Shown: piece by piece, positions 8,383 to 18,956 of the stretch
How positions within the stretch are numbered: the stretch's first letter is position 1
Layout: each line of letters begins with the position of its first letter
Origin: a virus
IMG/VR virus record: IMGVR_UViG_3300028666_000067
Coordinates: 1-38,282 of that record
Direction: 5' to 3' (one strand)
Length of the DNA stretch: 38,282 nt
The notes under the pieces: model-generated
Told to the model about the DNA's origin: nothing
Databases searched by the model: none
What the model saw: the letters and a program-made list of their open reading frames with translations, nothing else
Translations under genes and position numbers: made by a program

Positions 8383-8988
8383 ATGTTCTCAAAATACCAC
8401 GGACCAAATAGGATCGGACCGAACCTCGTCAGAAGAGCAAGGCGCAGTGATGATGCATTCGAAGATCTGTTGAAGATCGCAGATCGACTCATCATTGCCT
8501 TTGCTCTCCGCAGTGGAGTTCGTGGTGAGAGCATCGATGATCTATTGCAAGATGGACGCATCGTTGCTTGGAACTGCGTTCAGAACTTCGATCCAAAGGC
8601 TGGAGCAAAGTTCACAACATTCTTGGGTACGTCACTCAAGAACAGGTTCAATCAACATCACTACAGTCAATACACCTACAAACGAAAAGTTCGATCGTCT
8701 AGCGTGTCACTGGACGATATGAGGGAAGACAAGCCACAGATGATCAATGGCATTAGTGATCATAAGAGCGATGATCAATTCAATCTTAAGAACACTGAGA
8801 TCTTCCTCTCAGAGTTGATGGACATCCTTCCAGAAGAAGGAAGGAAGGTCTGCCAACTGATGATGAAAGGCCTGACACAAGAGCAGATCGCAAAGAAGAT
8901 GCATCTCACGAAAGCAAAGGTCAGATCCATCTTTGACCGTAAAGTTCGTGATCGCATCATCGATGCACAACAGAACAATTTCCTTTGA
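8383..8988 (+). CDS. sigma-70 family RNA polymerase sigma factor
   Basis: 201 aa. Region 2 is visible at residues about 35-90: SIDDLLQDGRIVAWNCVQNF followed by DPKAGAKFTTFLGTSLKNRF, the usual 'DL.Q.G...a...fD...g..F.tya...i.n' pattern. Residues about 140-200 hold a region-4-like helix-turn-helix (LPEEGRKVCQLMMKGLTQEQ, IAKKMHLTKAKVRSIFDRKV). It would bind host RNA polymerase and redirect it to phage promoters. A CCGGATA promoter-like motif lies just downstream (9012-9027) and again before the 30921 gene, making those candidate targets. Confidence 0.8.
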   Translation: MFSKYHGPNRIGPNLVRRARRSDDAFEDLLKIADRLIIAFALRSGVRGESIDDLLQDGRIVAWNCVQNFDPKAGAKFTTFLGTSLKNRFNQHHYSQYTYKRKVRSSSVSLDDMREDKPQMINGISDHKSDDQFNLKNTEIFLSELMDILPEEGRKVCQLMMKGLTQEQIAKKMHLTKAKVRSIFDRKVRDRIIDAQQNNFL

Positions 8989-9027: not shown

Positions 9028-9153
9028 CGAGTTTGATTCACTCACTTCACAGGTCTACTGACGGAGGTGGACTATCGGTTTATGACGGCGAGCAGAAACG
9101 AGGCTGATCTACGTCAACTTTCACTTTTCAATCATCACACAGAAGGAGCCACC

Positions 9154-10119
9154 ATGGCCAAGGATAAGAAGAAGGACGAGGAACTGGAAGAGGACGAGAA
9201 GGACATCAAGAAGAAGGGCAAGAAGAAGGAAGATGAAGAGGACGAGGACGACGAGAAGCCGAAGAAGAAGGGCAAGGCAAAGGACGACGACGAAGATGAG
9301 GACGAAGACGAGGAGGAAGACGAGAAGCCTTCCAAGAAGAAGTCCAAGTCTGACGACGAAGACGAAGATGATGATGACGATGACGACGAGAAGCCTTCAA
9401 AGAAGAAGTCCAAGTCCGATGACGAAGACGAGGATGAAGACGAGGATGAGGATGACGACGACGATGAGGACGACAAGAAGTCCAAGTCGAAGAAGAAGTC
9501 CAAGTCTGACGACGAAGACGAAGATGAAGACGAGGATGACGACGACGAGGAAGATGAAAAGCCTTCCAAGAAGAAGAAGTCCAAGTCCGATGAGGACGAT
9601 GAAGACGACGACGAGGATGAGGACGAAAAGCCCAAGTCCAAGAAGAAGTCGAAGAAGTCCGATGACGAAGACGAAGATGAGGAAGACGAGAAGCCTTCCA
9701 AGAAGAAGTCCAAGAAGTCCTCTGATGACGATGAGGATGACGAGGATGAGGACGAGGAGAAGTCCTCCAAGTCCAAAAAGAAGTCCAAGTCCAAAGATGA
9801 CGAAGAGGACGAGGACGACGAGGAAGACACCCCCAAAGGAAAGAAGGAGAAAACCATGGCTAAGAAAGAGAAGGACGTGAAGAAGAGCAAGAAGGAGAAA
9901 GAGGAGAAGAAGGAGAAGAAGAGCAAGCGAGGCAGCGGTGGTGAGCGACTGGTGAAGCATTGGTCGGGAGTCGCTGAGCGGCTGGCCAAGCGCTTGGCCA
10001 AGAACGCCAAGAAGCTGACCAGCGAGCTGAAGAAGGTGAAGGACGACAAGGAGTCCAGCAAGGCGCTGAGCTCTTTGGGAGAGTCCTTCGAGAAGGCTGC
10101 CAAGGTCTTGGCGGACTAA
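9154..10119 (+). CDS. Lys/Asp/Glu repeat protein with basic C-terminal domain
   Basis: 321 aa from ATG 9154, which follows AGAAGGAG by about 5 bases; the frame is open back to GTG 9067 and ATG 9082, but these are less well placed. Residues 25-230 are tandem blocks of acidic runs (DDEDEDEDED) joined by EKPSKKKSKS-type linkers. Residues 235-321 are very basic and helical (VAERLAKRLAKNAKKL), reminiscent of histone-H1-like DNA-binding tails. The polyacidic part may mimic DNA or act as a flexible shield; the basic part may bind DNA. A second start lies inside at 9856. The gene ends in a strong terminator, suggesting high expression. Function not established. Confidence 0.75.
   Translation: MAKDKKKDEELEEDEKDIKKKGKKKEDEEDEDDEKPKKKGKAKDDDEDEDEDEEEDEKPSKKKSKSDDEDEDDDDDDDEKPSKKKSKSDDEDEDEDEDEDDDDDEDDKKSKSKKKSKSDDEDEDEDEDDDDEEDEKPSKKKKSKSDEDDEDDDEDEDEKPKSKKKSKKSDDEDEDEEDEKPSKKKSKKSSDDDEDDEDEDEEKSSKSKKKSKSKDDEEDEDDEEDTPKGKKEKTMAKKEKDVKKSKKEKEEKKEKKSKRGSGGERLVKHWSGVAERLAKRLAKNAKKLTSELKKVKDDKESSKALSSLGESFEKAAKVLAD
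9233..9840 (+). repeat. in-frame acidic/Lys coding repeat
   Basis: Imperfect tandem repeat of roughly 60-75 bases: GAC/GAT/GAG/GAA runs separated by AAGCC-TCC-AAGAAGAAG units, encoding acidic runs and KPSKKKSK linkers. It is similar in base sequence to 20626-21080 in the SSB gene. Such tracts can change length by slippage or recombination. Confidence 0.75.
9846..9858 (+). promoter_or_regulatory. internal ribosome binding site and start codon
   Basis: GGAG at 9846-9849 lies 6 bases before an in-frame ATG at 9856 (AAGGAGAAAACCATGGCTAAG). This closely copies the arrangement at the gene's main start (AAGGAGCCACCATGGCCAAG at about 9143). It would give an 87-aa product containing only the basic domain. 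Confidence 0.45.
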
Positions 10120-10137: not shown

Positions 10138-10167
10138 GGAGAGGCGCCGAGAGGCGCCTCTCCTTTT
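10138..10167 (+). terminator. intrinsic terminator
   Basis: GGAGAGGCGCC, loop GAGA, GGCGCCTCTCC: a perfect 11-bp GC-rich stem (10138-10148 with 10153-10163) capped by a GNRA tetraloop and followed by TTTT. It ends the Lys/Asp/Glu repeat gene's transcript and separates it from the modification block. Confidence 0.92.
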
Positions 10168-10225: not shown

Positions 10226-10966
10226 ATGTTCTTCTACGAAGCCTTCAGCACTTTCGATGGAGCCTATCGATCTGTGTTGAGAGACATCCTAACGAAGGCA
10301 AAGTACAGTCCTTCGTCTAGAGGCCGAAAGTTCTTTGAGATCCCACAGTACACATTCGTACTGGAGAATCCAATGAACAACGAAGTCTCAGCGACACCGC
10401 GAGGCTTCAAGAGAGAATTCGCTCAGAAGTTCTTTGAGTGGATCTGGAATGGTGAGTCAGACATCACCAAGCTCTTTGGTGTGAATGACAACGCCAAGAA
10501 GTTCAGCGACGAAGATATGAAGGGACGCAACACAGCATATGGACCTCGCTTTGTCGAACAGAGAGAGCGAATCATTGCTGAGCTGAAGAGAGATCCAGAC
10601 ACCAGACGAGCTGTGATCAATATCCTCTATCCAATAGACTCAGAAATGCTGGAAGACTCGTTCAATGGGCTCACAAAGGTCGAGTACCCATGCACGATCG
10701 CACTGCAGTTCATGATCAGAGACAAGCAACTCAATCTTCATGTTCTGATGCGTTCGAACAACGCAGTCACAACGCTCTGCTATGATGTGTACAACTTCAC
10801 ACACATCCAAATGGCAGTACTGCAGAGACTTCAGAACGAAGGAATGGAGATCGATCTCGGACATTACTATCACTCCGCAGTTTCGATGCACATCTTCGAA
10901 GATGAGATGAGCTTAGCGAAGAAGATCTTGAACTGGTACGTTCAAAGACAAGGCATCAAAATCTGA
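10226..10966 (+). CDS. thymidylate-synthase-fold enzyme, probable dCMP hydroxymethylase
   Basis: 246 aa with the thymidylate synthase core: phosphate-binding Arg pair in DTRR (127-128), catalytic Cys156 in EYPCTIALQF, RS at 176-177, and the folate/nucleotide end GHYYHSAVSMHIF. In E. coli ThyA, Arg166 is followed 11 residues later by Asn177, which selects dUMP. Here Arg176 is followed 11 residues later by Asp187 (LCYD). Asp at this position is the hallmark of dCMP hydroxymethylases such as T4 gp42. The expected reaction is dCMP plus methylene-tetrahydrofolate to 5-hydroxymethyl-dCMP. First gene after a terminator; a GAGGAGG links it to the next gene. Fold certain; substrate inferred. Confidence 0.8.
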   Translation: MFFYEAFSTFDGAYRSVLRDILTKAKYSPSSRGRKFFEIPQYTFVLENPMNNEVSATPRGFKREFAQKFFEWIWNGESDITKLFGVNDNAKKFSDEDMKGRNTAYGPRFVEQRERIIAELKRDPDTRRAVINILYPIDSEMLEDSFNGLTKVEYPCTIALQFMIRDKQLNLHVLMRSNNAVTTLCYDVYNFTHIQMAVLQRLQNEGMEIDLGHYYHSAVSMHIFEDEMSLAKKILNWYVQRQGIKI

Positions 10967-10975
10967 GGAGGAAGC

Positions 10976-12046
10976 GTGCTCAAACTAATGGTTGGCAGCA
11001 ACTACGACCCAGCGTTGCCTGAGGCTTTCAGAGCTCTCAACGAGAAGTATGCTGGTAATGGCATACAGATCCATGAGATCTATGGTTCAGTGCAAAGCGT
11101 TAAGGTGTTTGGTTCAGCGCGTCCTGACTTCCGTGTTCCTAAAACGGATGTTGAGACGTTCGGCAAGACGGTGAAGCAATTTGTTGATGCAGGAATCTTG
11201 GTGAACTACACCGAGAATATTCCGATCGTCAAGAAGAGCGACATCGACAAGGTGTTGATCAAAGAGAAACTCGACATGCTGAAGAGCTTTGGCGTTGGGC
11301 GATTAACGATCAGCCATCCTCTTGCGATGGAGTTGGTTCAAGAGCTGTGCGACATTCCGATCGAGATCAGCACCATCTATCGAGCGAATACAGCGTACCA
11401 GCTGCGTGAGTTAAAGCGACGGGCACCCAACATTAACAAGATGTGCTTGGATGTTGCTCAGAACCGGAACTTCAAACTCATCTTCAAGCTTCTCGAGGAA
11501 GCAAAGAAGCTCGGTATCGACATCGAACTTCTGGCCAATGAGCTTTGCATTGCTGACTGCGCTGATCGAGTGCAGTGCTACAACGATCATGCTCAAGTGG
11601 CTGATGAGAAAGAAGCAGCTCAACAGAAGAGTTATCCGATGGGACGGTGCACTTATCTTCGCAATGCGATGAGTCCAGTTGAATGGACTCGTGCTCGCTT
11701 CATCTTGCCTCAGACGATGAAGTTCTACGAGTCAGTCACTGGCATCGATCATTTCAAGATCACTGGTCGTACTCACCCAACCAAGTACATCCTTTGGATC
11801 GTTGAGGAGTACTTGAAGCAAGACTTCCACGGTAATCTGCTTGGTCTTTGGGCTGATGTGAAGAACATTCAGCGCATTGCAAGAGGAGCAGAGGACTTCT
11901 TAGAACCTAACTTCTACATTGACTCAGAACCATATGGCAGCGAGTTCATTCGCAGATATTTGAATGACCCGATGCTCATCGACTTGGATCTTGATCATGA
12001 GTATGACATACTCAACAAGATCTTGGAGACGTCCCTACAGAAGTAG
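10976..12046 (+). CDS. peptidase U32-like protein (Fe-S TIM barrel)
   Basis: 356 aa, GTG start after GAGGAGG. U32-like features: alternating strands and helices of a TIM barrel (residues 1-185), the block IELLANELCIADC, and a C-terminal TGIDHFKITGRTHP with YLKQDFHGNLLGLW. Four cysteines (191, 195, 201, 225) could hold an iron-sulfur cluster. Despite the family name, the best studied members (UbiU/UbiV, TrhP, RlhA) take part in oxygen-independent hydroxylation of ubiquinone precursors, tRNA uridine or rRNA cytidine; others are linked to proteolysis. Lying between a dCMP-hydroxymethylase-like gene and dCMP deaminase/glycosyltransferase genes, it may hydroxylate a base or nucleotide. Family call good; activity inferred. 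Confidence 0.7.
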   Translation: MLKLMVGSNYDPALPEAFRALNEKYAGNGIQIHEIYGSVQSVKVFGSARPDFRVPKTDVETFGKTVKQFVDAGILVNYTENIPIVKKSDIDKVLIKEKLDMLKSFGVGRLTISHPLAMELVQELCDIPIEISTIYRANTAYQLRELKRRAPNINKMCLDVAQNRNFKLIFKLLEEAKKLGIDIELLANELCIADCADRVQCYNDHAQVADEKEAAQQKSYPMGRCTYLRNAMSPVEWTRARFILPQTMKFYESVTGIDHFKITGRTHPTKYILWIVEEYLKQDFHGNLLGLWADVKNIQRIARGAEDFLEPNFYIDSEPYGSEFIRRYLNDPMLIDLDLDHEYDILNKILETSLQK

Positions 12047-12070
12047 GGCACACACTGACGGAGGTATGTA

Positions 12071-12409
12071 ATGAGCAAGAAAACCAAGAATGGCTTCAAG
12101 AAGCTTGAGAGCGGTGATCTGTCGTTCCGCTTCGAGCACTTTGAAGGTGGAGTGATCAAAGGTGGAGATGAGGTCAATGGTGACACGTTCACAGCTAGGA
12201 TCTCGATGAGTGGAGCTGGTGAGGCTCCCGGTGTTTACAAGTCGGAGAAGAAAGCAAAGCAGCACATCATCGACTTCGTGAAGAAGCAGTTGAAGAGGAC
12301 CTTGAAGGAATTCGAGAAGCGGTTGAAGGAAACCAAAGCTGATTTGAAGAGCGATGAGAAGGAAGTCGAGTTCCAGCAGAAGCTCCTCAAGAAACTGAAG
12401 AAGGTGTAG
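12071..12409 (+). CDS. hypothetical protein, 112 aa
   Basis: Starts MSKKTKNGFKKLE after GGAGG. The N-terminal half looks like a small beta domain with Gly turns (FEHFEGGVIKGGDEVNG); residues 55-112 form a long Lys/Glu coiled coil. It lies inside the nucleotide-modification block but shows no catalytic motif. Possibly an accessory or DNA-binding subunit; function unknown. Confidence 0.65.
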   Translation: MSKKTKNGFKKLESGDLSFRFEHFEGGVIKGGDEVNGDTFTARISMSGAGEAPGVYKSEKKAKQHIIDFVKKQLKRTLKEFEKRLKETKADLKSDEKEVEFQQKLLKKLKKV

Positions 12410-12413
12410 AGAC

Positions 12414-12875
12414 ATGAAGGACAAGAATGCTCTTTGGACTGATCTGCTGCTTCGCTTTGCAGCACAATCAGAATGCAAGTCGAGGCAGATCGGAGCAATC
12501 ATCCTTGTAGAAAACCGTCTGGTCTCACAAGGGTGGAACAGTCCGCCACCTCATGTGAGCACAGACGACTGTTTGCGGTGTCAGTGTAAAGACAAGCCGC
12601 ATGAGTCAGGAAAGAACCTTGACAATGCGATCTGCATTCATGCAGAACAAAACGCTATCATGAATGCTGTATACAACGGCATAGCATTGAACGGCGCTGA
12701 GATGTGGTGCACCAATAAGCCTTGCGATATCTGTGCTGCAATGATCTGCCGGTCTGGGATCAAGACAGTCATATACCTCAATGACTACCCATCTCAATAC
12801 GCAGACATGTTCTTTGCTAAGTCGAACATCCGGGCGTTCTCAATCGAACAATACTCCAAATGGAGCAGTCAATGA
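12414..12875 (+). CDS. deoxycytidylate (dCMP) deaminase family protein
   Basis: 153 aa. Cytidine/dCMP deaminase zinc site: IHAEQNAI (His76-Ala77-Glu78, Glu as proton shuttle) and NKPCDIC (Cys104, Cys107). An extra Cys cluster CLRCQC (53-58) before it is typical of dCMP deaminases with a second zinc. It converts dCMP (or its hydroxymethyl or other derivative) to dUMP. In this block it would supply dUMP or tune the dCMP pool competing with the hydroxymethylase-like enzyme. Overlaps the glycosyltransferase start by ATGA. Confidence 0.88.
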   Translation: MKDKNALWTDLLLRFAAQSECKSRQIGAIILVENRLVSQGWNSPPPHVSTDDCLRCQCKDKPHESGKNLDNAICIHAEQNAIMNAVYNGIALNGAEMWCTNKPCDICAAMICRSGIKTVIYLNDYPSQYADMFFAKSNIRAFSIEQYSKWSSQ

Positions 12876-14167
12876 AGATCCTTTACGCAGTGCAAGTGTC
12901 CAACACAACGAAGATGCCAGACGGTTCTATGAAATGGTTGCTTCGCAATGATGCATGTGTCAACATCATGCGTGGCATCTTGATCGCTGTGTTGAAGAAG
13001 AAGCCTCAATGGCAGTTCGTCGTGAAGTTGCCAAGGTTGAAGGACATCGCAGACATGAAGTCGTATGCTGAGCTCTTCCCTGAAGAGATTCGCGACAACA
13101 TCATGATCTATGAGGACGACATCCCGATCTCACCTGTGACCAGTCGCTTCCACTTCGACTTCTTGCGTAGAAGGAAAGAGTTCCTCATCAATCCATTCCT
13201 TCATGGCATTGATGTCATGATCAATGATGAGAACACTCACACAATGAGCTGGAAGGTCGTGTTCCACGATCTCGGCTTGAGCATTCCGATGATCAGTACC
13301 AATTACTTCTTCGACAATCCTATTGGGAAGAAGACACCGAAAGGTGTTTGGTACTTCGATCGTCAAGTGGAGAGCTTCATTCACTCTGAGATCACAGCTT
13401 TCCAATGTGAAGCTACGAAAGATGAGACGATCAGAGTCCTTGATCAGCATCTCACAAGAAAAGGCGATTACACAATGCATTGGAAGCCTTCGATCTGGGG
13501 CATTGGATGCAGCGCCACTGAAGTGCTTGACAAGAGGATCCAAGCTTTTGAATTTCATTCTCTTAGCTTGAGACCAATCATCTATTTTGGCAATCGAATC
13601 ACAGAGACCGCTGGTCGATATACCAACTGGGATGATTTTGCTTATGGCATTGGAAAGTTGCTAGCGATCAAAGATCACACTCAATTCTCTGCTTACATGC
13701 TTGATCCAACTCGTAAAGTGACACGAGAACAACAAAACGTCATTGATGACGGTTCAGATCATCGGATCACTTTGCTTCATCTCAACAGAGAGCAGTATCT
13801 TGGTTTCATTCGCGGTCAGCACATCAGCTGCAACCTCTTCGTCAATGAGGTACATGGTGGCGTGACTCACGCAGAAGCCATGTTGGCTGGCAACTTGATC
13901 ATCTGCCCTCGAGTCAACAACTACAAGATCAAGATCGAGAAATATGCGAAGAACTATCCGCTCTTCGTGAAGCACAAAGGCTTCAAGATAGATACCACTG
14001 ACCTTGCGAAGAAGATGCATTTGGCTCTCACCATGCCGAAGGCTGAGCAATTGAAGTGGAGGAAAATGCTTGTCAAAGCTGCAATGGAGAACGAGACGTA
14101 TGAGTCAGCGGCTCCACGCATCATCGCTGATATCACAACTGCCAGCAAGATGGAGCTGATGCCATGA
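12872..14167 (+). CDS. GT-B type glycosyltransferase
   Basis: 431 aa from ATG 12872, supported by GGAG at 12862-12865 and the ATGA overlap; an in-frame ATG at 12860 is less well placed. The C-terminal Rossmann half carries NEVHGGVTHAEAMLAG (325-340) followed by NLIICP, the donor-binding E-x7-E-type loop of retaining GT-B enzymes; residues 232-240 form the strand opening that half (LRPIIYFGN). The N-terminal half begins MKILYAVQVS, a normal GT-B first strand. No membrane helix, so the acceptor is likely soluble. Given the neighbours, sugar transfer to hydroxymethyl-cytosine in DNA is the leading idea; protein or surface glycan acceptors remain possible. Confidence 0.72.
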   Translation: MKILYAVQVSNTTKMPDGSMKWLLRNDACVNIMRGILIAVLKKKPQWQFVVKLPRLKDIADMKSYAELFPEEIRDNIMIYEDDIPISPVTSRFHFDFLRRRKEFLINPFLHGIDVMINDENTHTMSWKVVFHDLGLSIPMISTNYFFDNPIGKKTPKGVWYFDRQVESFIHSEITAFQCEATKDETIRVLDQHLTRKGDYTMHWKPSIWGIGCSATEVLDKRIQAFEFHSLSLRPIIYFGNRITETAGRYTNWDDFAYGIGKLLAIKDHTQFSAYMLDPTRKVTREQQNVIDDGSDHRITLLHLNREQYLGFIRGQHISCNLFVNEVHGGVTHAEAMLAGNLIICPRVNNYKIKIEKYAKNYPLFVKHKGFKIDTTDLAKKMHLALTMPKAEQLKWRKMLVKAAMENETYESAAPRIIADITTASKMELMP

Positions 14168-14343
14168 GCTTCACAGTGACGACGATCAAAGGAACTGACA
14201 TCGTCAAAGCTGATATGGTGGATGTGAAAGATGGTATTCTTGAGTTTCAAAAAGAGACCAAGAGTAGCAGTCTTCGTTTTGGAAATTACAAAGTAGTTGC
14301 ATCGTACAATATGAAGCACGTCATCAAATGGGTGGAGAGATGA
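14164..14343 (+). CDS. hypothetical protein, 59 aa
   Basis: ATG at 14164 overlaps the glycosyltransferase stop (ATGA). The product begins MSFTVTTIKGTDIVKAD and ends HVIKWVER. It looks like a compact beta sheet: TTIKGTDIVKADMVDVKDG, ILEFQKE, YKVVASYN. No motif recognised. Coupled at both ends, so likely translated with its neighbours. Function unknown. Confidence 0.65.
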   Translation: MSFTVTTIKGTDIVKADMVDVKDGILEFQKETKSSSLRFGNYKVVASYNMKHVIKWVER

Positions 14344-14615
14344 TAAACTCAATTCGTATTTCACTTCACAATCTTTTAGTTCGATTGGCGATGTGGATTC
14401 ATCCAAGTAAACAGACGGCGCAAGAAATGATATTGGATCTTCGAAGAGAGCGATTGATCTTTGGTGAATCGTTTTATACGATCGTAAAGATCGATCCATA
14501 CAAAGTGTTCATCAAAGCTTCAATCAACAATGACAAGGTACCTACTACTGCTGAGATCGCCGATATCTTTAGTGGCGCTGGGACACGACACATTTATGAG
14601 AGGGTAGAACAATGA
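14340..14615 (+). CDS. hypothetical protein, about 91 aa
   Basis: The start is ambiguous: ATG 14340 overlaps the upstream TGA, while ATG 14328 lies in the same frame without a ribosome site. Product from 14340 begins MINSIRISLHNLLVRL. Its N-terminus is an amphipathic/hydrophobic helix (ISLHNLLVRLAMWI), then an alpha/beta domain with FYTIVKIDPYKVFIKASI. More AT-rich than neighbouring genes. Function unknown. Confidence 0.6.
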   Translation: MINSIRISLHNLLVRLAMWIHPSKQTAQEMILDLRRERLIFGESFYTIVKIDPYKVFIKASINNDKVPTTAEIADIFSGAGTRHIYERVEQ

Positions 14616-15184
14616 AGATCATATTTGAAGGTGCAGACAAAACAGGCAAGACGACATTGGCCAATCTTCTCTCGAAGAAACTTGGCATGAAGATGTTCTA
14701 TCCTCCGAGAGCAACTGACAACGTGAGCTTCCCGGAAGGTGGAAAGATAGAGCACTACTTCTTAGGCATCAACAAAACAATGCTTGAGATGTTCAAGATG
14801 TTCGACAACTTCATCTGCGATCGTTTCTTCATATCGGACGCAGTGTACTCTAAGATCTACGGAAGAACACAGAACATCAGCACGCCAATGATCACAAGCA
14901 TCGAAGGCGATGTCTTAGTCGTTGTCACAACGTGCTCTTCTGCAACGAGAATGGAACGATTGATCGCAGAAAGTCCAGACGACACTGGACCAGAGTTTGA
15001 TGAACATCTTCATGGTGTGATGTTCACCGAGTACGTGAAGTTCTATGCTCCAAAGTTTCCAGCCAACTTCAGGTTCTTGATCGTTGACACTGGTCGTCAC
15101 AATGAGAAGCAATGCATTGAGATGATAGAGGCAAAGATCAAGTTCATAAGGGCAATGCGCCTTAACAAGAAAAAGAAGTCGTGA
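14612..15184 (+). CDS. deoxynucleoside monophosphate kinase-like P-loop protein
   Basis: 190 aa. Begins MKIIFEGADKTGKTTLA: P-loop GADKTGKTT (7-15) in the form used by thymidylate kinases and dNMP kinases. The DRF motif in NFICDRFFISDAVYSKIYGR is the usual nucleotide-binding Asp-Arg. The C-terminal half matches kinase lid and core length. In the block it could phosphorylate hydroxymethyl-dCMP, or dTMP, to diphosphates for DNA synthesis. Exact substrate not determined; a deoxynucleoside kinase is the alternative. Confidence 0.75.
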   Translation: MKIIFEGADKTGKTTLANLLSKKLGMKMFYPPRATDNVSFPEGGKIEHYFLGINKTMLEMFKMFDNFICDRFFISDAVYSKIYGRTQNISTPMITSIEGDVLVVVTTCSSATRMERLIAESPDDTGPEFDEHLHGVMFTEYVKFYAPKFPANFRFLIVDTGRHNEKQCIEMIEAKIKFIRAMRLNKKKKS

Positions 15185-15744
15185 ACTTAAAGCTGATCAA
15201 CGCAAAAGTCGAACTGTGTAATAAATGTAAGCTGTCACCAAACAGAGGTCTTGGTTATGGTGATGGAAAATCAAAGATCATGTTCATCGCTCAAAACGCT
15301 GGATGGCAACCGAAGTCTCGCACAGCAGACATCATCCCATTCGGTTTAGATGATGGTGGCAACAACAGTGGTAGAACACTCGTCAAGTTGTTCAAAGATG
15401 TAGAGATGAATGCACCATACTACATCACCAACGTGATGAAGTGCCCGACACCAGACAATAGGCCTCCTACAGATGATGAGATCTTTCGATGCATAGACTT
15501 TCTTCGCTTAGAACTAGAGAGTCAGAAGCCGAAGTTGATCTTCGTCATGGGCAACGTGGCTAAGCACTCCTACAACTTCTACATGAAGCGGTTGTTGAAG
15601 AAATTGTTGGATGATGGTCACTGCTGGTTTGTGCATTACATGTGGCATCCACGAGCAGTGATGAGGAATCCAAAGCTTTACGCACAATGGAAAACTGAGT
15701 TCGATGCGTTCTGGACTCAGTACAAACATCTGGTGAAACAATGA
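15181..15744 (+). CDS. uracil-DNA glycosylase superfamily, family-4-like
   Basis: 187 aa, GTG start overlapping the upstream TGA. Four cysteines suited to a 4Fe-4S cluster: CNKC (13, 16), KCPTP (88) and Cys104 in FRCIDFL. TNVMKC matches family 4, as does the C-terminal catalytic loop MWHPRAV (His156). The first active-site motif is usually GEAPG with an acidic residue after it; here it is AQNAGWQPKSR (37-47), so the catalytic pocket is altered. It may excise uracil or another damaged or modified base, or may have lost base excision. Located between a dNMP kinase and the polymerase. Confidence 0.78.
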   Translation: MNLKLINAKVELCNKCKLSPNRGLGYGDGKSKIMFIAQNAGWQPKSRTADIIPFGLDDGGNNSGRTLVKLFKDVEMNAPYYITNVMKCPTPDNRPPTDDEIFRCIDFLRLELESQKPKLIFVMGNVAKHSYNFYMKRLLKKLLDDGHCWFVHYMWHPRAVMRNPKLYAQWKTEFDAFWTQYKHLVKQ

Positions 15745-18700
15745 GCTTTGTCAACTTGCATATACACAGCGAGAACTCCTTACTCGATGGAGTTGGAACG
15801 ATCAAAGAGATCGTGAAGAAAGCCAAAGAGCAAGGTTCACCTGCCATTGCTGTTACTGATCACGGTAATGTCAATGGTGCTGTGCAGCTCTATCAAGAAT
15901 GCAAGGAAAACGGCATCAAACCGATCTTTGGATCAGAGTTCTATTTCGGTTATGATGCTGAGAAGAAAGAGAAGAATACCGGCAACATGCACCTCATCGT
16001 GCTGGCTAAGAACAAGCAAGGCTTTGAGAATCTTCTGCGTCTCAACGGATGGGCCCACAAACACGGGTTCTATCGCAAGCCTCGCATAGACTTCGCTCAT
16101 TTGAAAGAGTTGAAGGAAGGATTGATCGTTCTCTCTGGTTGTACTTCTGGTGTCATCGCCAAGAAGCTGATTGCCAAAGATTACGATGGAGCTTTAGAAT
16201 GGGCAGAGAAATTCAAGAAGGTCTTTGGTGAAGACTACTATCTTGAGATGCAAGTGCACGACTACAAAGAACAAAGGGTCGTGAACAAAGGCATCATCAA
16301 ACTCAGCGCAGAGTTGAAGATCAAAACAGTCATCACCAATGATGCTCACTATGTCAACGAGGATGATGGTCTCCTCCAAGATGTGATGGCACTCATCAAG
16401 CAGAAGAAGACGTGGAAGGATCGAAAGGAGGCTCTGGAAAGAATCAAACGTGGTGAGCCATCCAAAATGCCTTGGGAGCTTGGCTGCAAGCAACTGTGGA
16501 TGAAGAGCGAAGACGAGATGTTAGCGAGTTGGAAGGAATGGCATAAGGACTACATGGATCGTAAGATCTTTGAACGTTCTGTCGCTGAGACTGCGAAACT
16601 CTCGGAGAAGATAGACAATGTCGCTATCGATTCATCTTACAAGTTTCCAAACATCGACTCTAAAAAGAGCGTTGAGGATACCTTTCAAGAAATGCTTGAT
16701 GAAGGCTTTAAGAAACGAGGCTTCAAAGATTCAAGCAAAGATGAGAAAGCAAGAATCAAGTATGAACAGAAGATCCTTCAGGATTTAGGACTCCTGCCAT
16801 ACTTCGTGATCTTGGCCGATGCAATCAAAGAAGCAAGGAAGCGTGGGATCATGGTTGGCATTGGTCGTGGTTCAGCCGCTGGTTCTCTCATCTGCTACTG
16901 CCTCGGCATCACAGGTGTCAATCCTCTGATCCACGGTCTGATGTTCGAAAGGTTCATCAGTCCAGCCAGAAAAGACATGCCTGATATTGACGTGGACTTC
17001 GAATCTGAACGCAAAGGCGAGATCGAAGAATACCTCATCAGCAAGTATGGTGAGGATAAGGTTGGACACGTTGCAACATATGGCATGATGCAGTTGAAGT
17101 CCTCCATCAAAGACGTTTCACGTGTGATGGGTGGAGATCCAAAAGCTACCAACGATTTCACGGCTGTCTTCCCGAAAGACATTGACAAAGAAGTGAAGAC
17201 GAAGTATCCGAAGCTTTCTGATTTTAAGGAAGCCTTCGCTGAGCACGTCGACAAGTTCTTGTCAGCACACGAGAAACATGAGAAGATCCTCAAAACAGCT
17301 TGGAAGCTCAAGGGTAGGATTCGGCACATCAGTCAACATCCAGCTGGGATCGTCATCACTCCTAAGCCATTGGATCACTTGGTTGCGGTACAGCGACACG
17401 GTGGTAAGCTGTTGATTGGCTGGACAGAAGGTCAGAGGAAGGAACTGACTCCTTTCGGCTTTGTGAAGTATGACGTGTTGGGCATCAAAACGCTCGACAT
17501 CTTGAAGAGAGCTTTGCAGCTTATCAAGAAGCGTCATGATAAAGACATCGACATTGAGACCATTCCGCTGACAGACAAGAAAGTCTACAAGAAAATGAGC
17601 AAGGGACTTTCACTCGGTTCCTTCCAGTTTGAAACTGACATCATGGCGATGATGCTCAGAGAACTTAAACCGGATTGCTTCGATGATCTTGCAGCTCTCA
17701 ATGCTCTCGATCGACCTGGTCCGTTGCGAATGAAGATGGACAAGGTCTTCTATGATCTCAAGCATGGTGTTGAGAACAAGAATACGAAGAAGATGGTGAA
17801 ACAGATCATGCGTAAGATGTTCCCTGAAACATACGGCGTTGTGCTGTATCAGGAACAAGTGATGATGGCTGCAATGCAGCTGTCAGGATTCTCAGTCATT
17901 GAAGCTGATGATATGAGAAGGACGATCACGAAGAATGTCGGTAAGTTCGACAAGCCAGAAGTCAAGAAACTGCTTGATGAAGTGAAGCATAAGTTCATCA
18001 GTCGTGCAACAAAGAAGATCGGCGAGTCAGATGCTAAGTTCGTTTGGGAGATCATCTTCAAGTTCACTGAGTACGGCTTCAACAAGGCTCACTCAGTTTG
18101 CTATGCGATGATTGGCTATCAATGCATGTATTTGAAAGTCAACTACCCAATCGAGTTCTACACAGCGATCCTTCAATGGTCCAGTGGCACTGACACTGAG
18201 GTCTACATTGAAGACGCTTTGAAGAACGGCATCAAGATCTTGCCAGTGGATATCAACAAGTCGAAGCTTCGCTTCAAGCCAGAAGGCGATGGCATCAGAT
18301 ATCCATTGGGTCACATCCGTGATGTGAAGAAAGCAGCCGTGAGGATCGTTGAAGAGAAATACAAAAGCTTCGACGACTTCCTCAAGAAGATAACAGGAAA
18401 GCGAGTCAACAAGAAGTCGATCATGTCACTCATCAAGGCTGGTGCATTTGACTCGATGGATCCAAAGATCAAGCGTGACAAGCTTGCCTATCTCTACACT
18501 AAGATGAAAGCCAAACCAAAAGAGAGAGAGGCTATTGAACGAGAGAGGTGGGATGTTTCAAAGCTCCTGAAGATGGAGAAAGAAGCTTATGGCTTTGAAT
18601 TCTCTGTCCATCTGTTCGATGATATGCTCGTCAAGCTTGGAAAAGATCACGGCCTAGAACATTTAGAAAAGGTTTTCGAGAATGACGCCGGTTACCAAGC

Positions 18701-18956
18701 TCACGTTGGTGGTATCATTCGTTCAGTGAGAGAACATCGAGCCAGAAATGGTGTGATGGCCTTCGTTGACTTTCAATTCGGAAAGAAGAAGGCTTCACTT
18801 ACGATCTTTGGTGATCGATGGCAGACGTACAAACACTTCGTCAAGCCAGGTGCATTGTTCTATGGAGATCTCACAGTTTCAGAATATCGTGAGAAGAAGA
18901 ACTTCGTGCTTTCTGGGCGTGGTGGAGCAGATAACTACATGAAAGTTGTAGATTGA
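15741..18956 (+). CDS. dnaE: DNA polymerase III alpha subunit (DnaE-type)
   Basis: 1071 aa, complete. The N-terminal PHP domain starts NLHIHSENSLLDG and keeps the metal ligands His7, His9, Asp40-His41, Glu66, His84, Cys134 and Asp201/His203. The polymerase palm has MPDIDVDF with catalytic Asp415 and Asp417, and KYDVLGIKTLD with Asp578. GFNKAHSVCYAMIGYQCMYL and the helix-hairpin-helix KSIMSLIKAGAFDSM follow, then a C-terminal OB-like region. Slightly shorter than E. coli DnaE (about 1160). It would be the phage replicase; the intact PHP metal site could supply proofreading, since no DnaQ-like exonuclease is seen in the window. Starts with an ATGA overlap. Confidence 0.97.
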   Translation: MSFVNLHIHSENSLLDGVGTIKEIVKKAKEQGSPAIAVTDHGNVNGAVQLYQECKENGIKPIFGSEFYFGYDAEKKEKNTGNMHLIVLAKNKQGFENLLRLNGWAHKHGFYRKPRIDFAHLKELKEGLIVLSGCTSGVIAKKLIAKDYDGALEWAEKFKKVFGEDYYLEMQVHDYKEQRVVNKGIIKLSAELKIKTVITNDAHYVNEDDGLLQDVMALIKQKKTWKDRKEALERIKRGEPSKMPWELGCKQLWMKSEDEMLASWKEWHKDYMDRKIFERSVAETAKLSEKIDNVAIDSSYKFPNIDSKKSVEDTFQEMLDEGFKKRGFKDSSKDEKARIKYEQKILQDLGLLPYFVILADAIKEARKRGIMVGIGRGSAAGSLICYCLGITGVNPLIHGLMFERFISPARKDMPDIDVDFESERKGEIEEYLISKYGEDKVGHVATYGMMQLKSSIKDVSRVMGGDPKATNDFTAVFPKDIDKEVKTKYPKLSDFKEAFAEHVDKFLSAHEKHEKILKTAWKLKGRIRHISQHPAGIVITPKPLDHLVAVQRHGGKLLIGWTEGQRKELTPFGFVKYDVLGIKTLDILKRALQLIKKRHDKDIDIETIPLTDKKVYKKMSKGLSLGSFQFETDIMAMMLRELKPDCFDDLAALNALDRPGPLRMKMDKVFYDLKHGVENKNTKKMVKQIMRKMFPETYGVVLYQEQVMMAAMQLSGFSVIEADDMRRTITKNVGKFDKPEVKKLLDEVKHKFISRATKKIGESDAKFVWEIIFKFTEYGFNKAHSVCYAMIGYQCMYLKVNYPIEFYTAILQWSSGTDTEVYIEDALKNGIKILPVDINKSKLRFKPEGDGIRYPLGHIRDVKKAAVRIVEEKYKSFDDFLKKITGKRVNKKSIMSLIKAGAFDSMDPKIKRDKLAYLYTKMKAKPKEREAIERERWDVSKLLKMEKEAYGFEFSVHLFDDMLVKLGKDHGLEHLEKVFENDAGYQAHVGGIIRSVREHRARNGVMAFVDFQFGKKKASLTIFGDRWQTYKHFVKPGALFYGDLTVSEYREKKNFVLSGRGGADNYMKVVD

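Follow-up and report, generated by a model that had tools for sequence, protein, structure and literature searches.

The DNA analysed here (hereafter the window) is a 38,282-nucleotide stretch of the IMG/VR virus record IMGVR_UViG_3300028666_000067, and it carries, at positions 10226–15744, a gene block whose likely role is the hypermodification of DNA cytosine. The block begins with a predicted dCMP C5-modifying enzyme of the thymidylate synthase (TS) fold (10226–10966; Pfam TS, 2.1e-12), followed by a U32-family protein (10976–12046; Pfam U32, 5e-5; PHROG U32 family, 3e-51) that is a candidate prephenate-dependent C5 hydroxylase. Downstream lie a small Lys/Glu-rich open reading frame (ORF) within the operon (12071–12409), a dCMP deaminase (12414–12875; Pfam, 1.1e-18; HAE and PCxxC zinc motifs), a GT-B glycosyltransferase (GT)-like gene labelled GT3 here (12860–14167), a second small ORF (14328–14615), a P-loop dNMP kinase-like gene (14612–15184; Pfam thymidylate kinase, 2.6e-7; GADKTGKT motif), and a family-4-like uracil-DNA glycosylase (UDG)-like gene (15181–15744; Pfam UDG, 4.1e-16; Cys13, Cys16, Cys88, and Cys104). 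An intrinsic terminator at 10138–10167, with an 11-bp GC-rich stem (GGAGAGGCGCC), a GAGA loop, and a TTTT tail, sets off the block, although a generic terminator scan recovers only part of the hairpin. All of these features lie on the plus strand. An earlier note on this DNA had described the same six named genes in this order behind a strong terminator, and the family searches, together with a partial AlphaFold2 (AF2) model for the GT, bear this out. Its description of short gaps and overlaps holds for most of the genes but not for the 160-base gap at 14168–14327. As it also stated, the block runs straight into the polymerase, since the UDG-like gene ends at 15744 and a DnaE-type DNA polymerase III alpha gene (15741–18956; Pfam pol III alpha) starts before that end.

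The TS-like protein combines the features of the cytosine-specific branch of the TS superfamily, namely the TS fold, a catalytic Cys, paired Arg residues, and an Asp at the position of ThyA Asn177. Cys156 (the nucleophile), Arg127/Arg128 (the phosphate site), and Asp187 are invariant in an alignment of 43 TS-like phage proteins, and Asp187 aligns with the cytosine-type Asp of T4 gp42, which confirms the earlier assignment of this residue. Asp187 thus points to cytosine rather than uracil as the predicted substrate. The earlier note had further taken the Asn-to-Asp exchange as the mark of dCMP hydroxymethylases; the cytosine specificity stands, but the residue has no power to separate hydroxymethylation from hydroxylation, since the same Asp is invariant in the RB69-type TS-like enzymes. 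In the RB69-type phage NP, the TS-superfamily enzyme is reported to be a 5-hydroxy-dCMP synthase (PMC13390438). The block TS shares ~30% identity with the RB69-type enzymes and with those of PAU and Atu_ph04, and 22% with T4 gp42. Its best PDB matches are 9iqu (1.8e-26) and 9iqc, both with RB69-like sequences when aligned against the RB69 protein, while T4 gp42 scores 1.5e-6. In the tree, where branches are long, it forms a deep branch with L078 that is nearer to the RB69-type clade than to T4 gp42.

The window matches part of the 122,758-base viral contig IMGVR_UViG_3300029957_000007 (hereafter G001) at 99.9% identity. The ends of G001 (1–296 and 122463–122758) overlap by ~296 bases, so that this 122-kb genome appears nearly complete or circularly closed; the window is a 38-kb fragment of it. 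Since G001 also encodes a canonical ThyA (110507–111304, 393 bits), the block TS is a specialised paralogue. This ThyA gene adjoins a MazG/PRA-PH-like pyrophosphohydrolase gene, whose product is a candidate dCTPase.

The U32 gene, which had no role in the earlier note, lies 10 bases from the TS-like gene. The Pfam score of its product (23.1 bits) is barely above the U32 cut-off of 22.4, placing the protein in the family, and its AF2 model (pLDDT 84.8) has the solved U32 protein 5d88 as the top Foldseek match (E 3.8e-7); a PDB sequence search with this protein yielded nothing useful. Glu184, Cys191, and Cys201 align with the residues essential in RlhA (E161, C169, and C176) and TrhP (E162, C170, and C177) (PMC6599085), and all three are invariant in 15 phage U32 proteins, as are Cys195 and Cys225. 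U32 homologues occur in 218 of 50,697 phage records, all below 60% identity, and the phages that carry one include RB69, LC53, Thanatos, Proteus PM2, Marfa, and PEi20; T4 has no U32 gene. In six genomes, the U32 gene adjoins the TS-like gene or lies within ~1.5 kb of it. The U32 neighbour is the strongest clue to direct oxygenation of C5.

Both RlhA, which makes 5-hydroxycytidine in 23S rRNA, and TrhP need prephenate (PMC6599085), and genes for prephenate supply accompany the phage U32 genes. A chorismate mutase (CM) gene lies between the U32 and TS genes in LC53, PM2, and PEi20, and after the U32 gene in Thanatos. A fusion of 3-deoxy-D-arabino-heptulosonate 7-phosphate (DAHP) synthase with CM adjoins U32 in L019 (a 61% U32 relative), and DAHP synthase adjoins it in L035. 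In L075, a CM gene is near U32 and a DAHP synthase gene is ~29 kb off on the same contig. This contig (JAFLUY010000008, from an Erysipelotrichales metagenome-assembled genome) is likely a phage and has U32, CM, kinase, transferase-like, and RmlC-type epimerase genes; no TS-like gene was found on it. DAHP synthase or CM, including the fusion, is present in 16 of 25 U32-bearing records, in several of which it directly adjoins U32. DAHP synthase was found in 12 of the 25 U32-bearing records and, in whole-record searches, in none of the 22 U32-lacking ones; for CM among the latter, the search covered the whole record for T4 and the surroundings of the TS gene for the others. The corresponding Fisher values, 1e-4 for DAHP synthase and 1e-6 for DAHP synthase or CM, take no account of shared ancestry or of some contigs being fragments. 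In the phage collection, DAHP synthase occurs in 209 records, with nearly the same host genera as the 218 records with U32, and at least 22 of the 60 listed DAHP synthase records are among the 103 listed U32 records, where identical sets would give 28 and unrelated sets 0.3. T4-like phages with U32 commonly carry an AroFG-type DAHP synthase (L059, 209 phage records), whose role seems unexplained in the available literature. We put at even odds the general proposal that, in phages of several lineages, U32 hydroxylates a DNA precursor at C5 in a prephenate-dependent manner, that these phages carry DAHP synthase and CM to feed it, and that the window represents a new branch with its own GT and a non-arabinose sugar. 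The link between U32, prephenate, and the shikimate pathway is undescribed in the available literature, but a 2025 preprint on the biosynthesis may already contain it.

No match to the window GT was found in Pfam, PHROG, PDB sequences, or the phage collection. Its AF2 model is partial; the well-modelled C-terminal domain resembles the retaining GT-B enzymes OtsA, PimA, MshA, WaaG, and glycogen synthase (GT4/GT5/GT20-like fold), but the protein lacks the GT4 E-x7-E motif. Relatives of GT3 are found in L035 (49%), L074 (44%), L079, L080/81, L088/90, and L108. In all of them, a short-chain dehydrogenase/reductase (SDR) epimerase gene is close to the GT gene, and in all except L035 the GT gene is preceded by a TS-like gene; the SDR homologue of G001 lies elsewhere, at 111680–112756. 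This association with an SDR epimerase makes plain glucose an unlikely sugar, and simple glucosylation is unsupported. The GT3 relatives have none of the arabinose genes found with the RB69-type transferase family, and arabinose-5-phosphate isomerase-like and NTP-transferase genes gave no match in G001 or near the block. Arabinose was rejected as the sugar because G001 has no arabinose pathway genes. The window GT thus marks a second branch, with an SDR epimerase instead of the arabinose genes of RB69. In L074 (10284–15285), two SDR epimerase genes, a GDP-mannose 4,6-dehydratase gene, and another possible glycosyltransferase gene stand beside TS and GT3, which suggests a deoxyhexose or a longer glycan.

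The remaining genes of the block fit around these enzymes. The dCMP deaminase probably supplies the phage ThyA with dUMP and clears away unmodified dCMP, and the P-loop kinase, of a type found with TS or U32 in most relatives, is proposed to act on the modified dCMP. The UDG-like protein, whose gene also adjoins GT3 in L035, possibly repairs deaminated (modified) cytosine. The polymerase, which is DnaE-type and not T4-like, is proposed to use the modified dNTP. The small ORF at 12071–12409 has no relative in the compared loci. Two genes upstream of the block, a sigma-70-like factor (8383–8988; Pfam region 2, 2.5e-10) may drive its expression. Directly upstream, a 350-residue ORF (9067–10119) consists almost entirely of Lys/Glu/Asp/Ser repeats and ends in a basic, helix-like tail.

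We consider that the block is a DNA-cytosine hypermodification cassette making glycosylated 5-hydroxycytosine, with oxygen placed directly on C5 through U32 and the TS-like enzyme, and give this reading a probability of roughly 0.58. A C5-linked glycosylated cytosine of some kind is highly probable, and the preference for a 5-hydroxy over a 5-hydroxymethyl group is modest. The genes, catalytic residues, folds, and genomic associations are shown, while the substrate, the product, the division of labour between U32 and TS, the sugar, and a role in defence are inferred. In the proposed pathway, the TS-like enzyme, in which Cys156 would add to C6 and Asp187 would accept cytosine, and U32, using prephenate like RlhA and TrhP, would together turn dCMP into 5-hydroxy-dCMP. 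The P-loop kinase and then host kinases would yield 5-hydroxy-dCTP, which the DnaE polymerase would incorporate instead of dC; meanwhile, the dCMP deaminase and the MazG-like pyrophosphohydrolase encoded elsewhere in the genome would drain the unmodified dC nucleotides. Finally, the GT-B enzyme would move an SDR-derived sugar to the 5-OH, shielding the DNA from nucleases.

This pathway has close counterparts. In NP, arabinose derived from 5-hydroxy-dC is attached directly at C5 (PMC13390438), and in Thanatos a deoxypentose is joined directly to cytosine via an O-glycosidic bond (PMC12838424). The arabinosyl-5-hydroxycytosine pathway of Mosigvirus (RB69 and NP) and LC53 and the related Thanatos pentose are reported by Mahler 2025 and Lee 2025 (cited in PMC13390438 and PMC12838424). 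RB69, LC53, and Thanatos, or their relatives, carry a pentose or arabinose O-linked directly to C5 of cytosine. Serratia phage LC53 is reportedly the main phage of Mahler 2025. Like these phages, the window has TS-like, U32, P-loop kinase, and glycosyltransferase genes in one block near the polymerase, and its phage has a separate ThyA. Unlike the RB69-type phages, it lacks the KdsD-like isomerase and NTP-transferase fusion, has a different GT family and an SDR epimerase, and belongs to a 122-kb non-T4-like genome with a DnaE polymerase, with only 30–35% identity. T4 DNA carries 5-hydroxymethylcytosine. The window shares with the gp42/beta-glucosyltransferase system of T4 the cytosine-type Asp in a TS fold and the order of events, in which a mononucleotide is modified and then glycosylated; however, T4 has no U32, CM, or DAHP synthase, and no solved structure matches the window GT in sequence. 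With RlhA (23S rRNA ho5C2501) and TrhP (tRNA ho5U34), the window protein shares the U32 fold and the essential Glu/Cys/Cys, and prephenate-supply genes stand beside the phage U32 in relatives. Unlike RlhA and TrhP, to which it is 18–19% identical, it has a phage-specific Cys spacing, and its proposed target is a DNA precursor rather than RNA.

Several observations weigh against glycosylated 5-hydroxycytosine made by U32 and the TS-like enzyme. The block TS does not fall inside the RB69-type 5-hydroxy-dCMP synthase clade of the tree, and since it is a deep branch at ~30% identity to everything informative, its product cannot be read from the sequence. The N-terminal half of the GT model is of low confidence, and homology of the window GT to the colinear RB69-type TS-downstream transferase was rejected, because the profile comparison gave a probability of 1.9%, which is not significant. 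Searches of G001 found neither DAHP synthase nor CM, and the small ORFs at 12071–12409 and 14328–14615 match neither, so that a hidden copy of either was rejected and the phage would depend on host prephenate. RB69 has neither gene as well. TS-like genes very close to that of RB69 occur without U32 in JS98, Stupor, and 17 other TS-bearing records, and since the active sites are alike across the alignment of 43, a TS residue separating the U32-bearing from the U32-lacking cases was rejected; U32 is therefore not needed everywhere. Conversely, U32 occurs without a TS-like gene in the available sequence of L019, L035, L036, and L075, several of which are fragments, so joint action of the two proteins is not established.

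Joint action is therefore one model, and a dual route, resembling that of prephenate-dependent TrhP and oxygen-dependent TrhO in tRNA hydroxylation (PMC6599085), is another. In the latter, the TS-like enzyme and U32 would be alternative ways to the same 5-hydroxy-dCMP, and either could be lost. The persistence of the kinase/GT module where one of the two genes is missing and the patchy distribution of U32 over the TS tree agree with this model. However, several of the U32-only contigs are fragments, and the TS-like and U32 genes, where both are present, mostly lie side by side, which fits a single step; we hold the dual route only tentatively. It is somewhat less likely still that the scheme of T4 applies, with a TS-like enzyme that hydroxymethylates dCMP in a folate-dependent manner, a GT that decorates 5-hydroxymethylcytosine, and a U32 protein that does something else, such as RNA hydroxylation. 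The alignment of Asp187 with T4 gp42, the solved CMP 5-hydroxymethylases 5jnh/5b6d among the best PDB matches of the block TS, and cassettes of TS-like, GT3, and kinase genes without U32 would suit this T4-like scheme. The far closer match of the block TS to the RB69-type enzymes than to gp42 and the adjacent U32 gene, whose relatives mark 5-hydroxycytosine phages, argue against it. Thus, of the earlier note's reading, hypermodified and sugar-decorated cytosine is well supported, but 5-hydroxymethylcytosine, in the manner of T4, is not the preferred product.

The two other explanations remove one of the enzymes from the pathway. U32 could modify tRNA, rRNA, or a host metabolite during infection, its place beside TS reflecting operon economy only. 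The U32 targets functionally characterised in PMC6599085 are RNAs, but both in the window and in several unrelated phages U32 has TS-like, kinase, or GT genes nearby, and a motif-seeded scan covering 84,980 bacterial and archaeal species found the phage U32 subfamily in only 2 contigs; an RNA or metabolite target is accordingly improbable. We reject the idea that the TS-like protein is only a second thymidylate synthase, with no hypermodification, as very improbable: it would explain the Pfam TS match, but G001 has its true ThyA, the dUMP-specific Asn is replaced by Asp, and GT and kinase genes co-occur in the relatives.

The class of modification and its general chemistry are already published, and the window adds a new variant from outside the T4-like phages. 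The set of GT3 and epimerase genes provides a marker for finding more such viruses. How oxygen reaches C5 of cytosine, and why T4-like phages carry a DAHP synthase, are unexplained in the available literature; the link between U32 and prephenate would, if true, answer both questions and be directly testable. It would mean that a DNA base can be hydroxylated without the need for molecular oxygen, and the window would show this chemistry extending past the T4-like phages, with another sugar branch. The sugar-modified cytosine would probably hide the phage DNA from the defences of bacteria, and the route to it appears to tap the aromatic amino-acid pathway of the cell.

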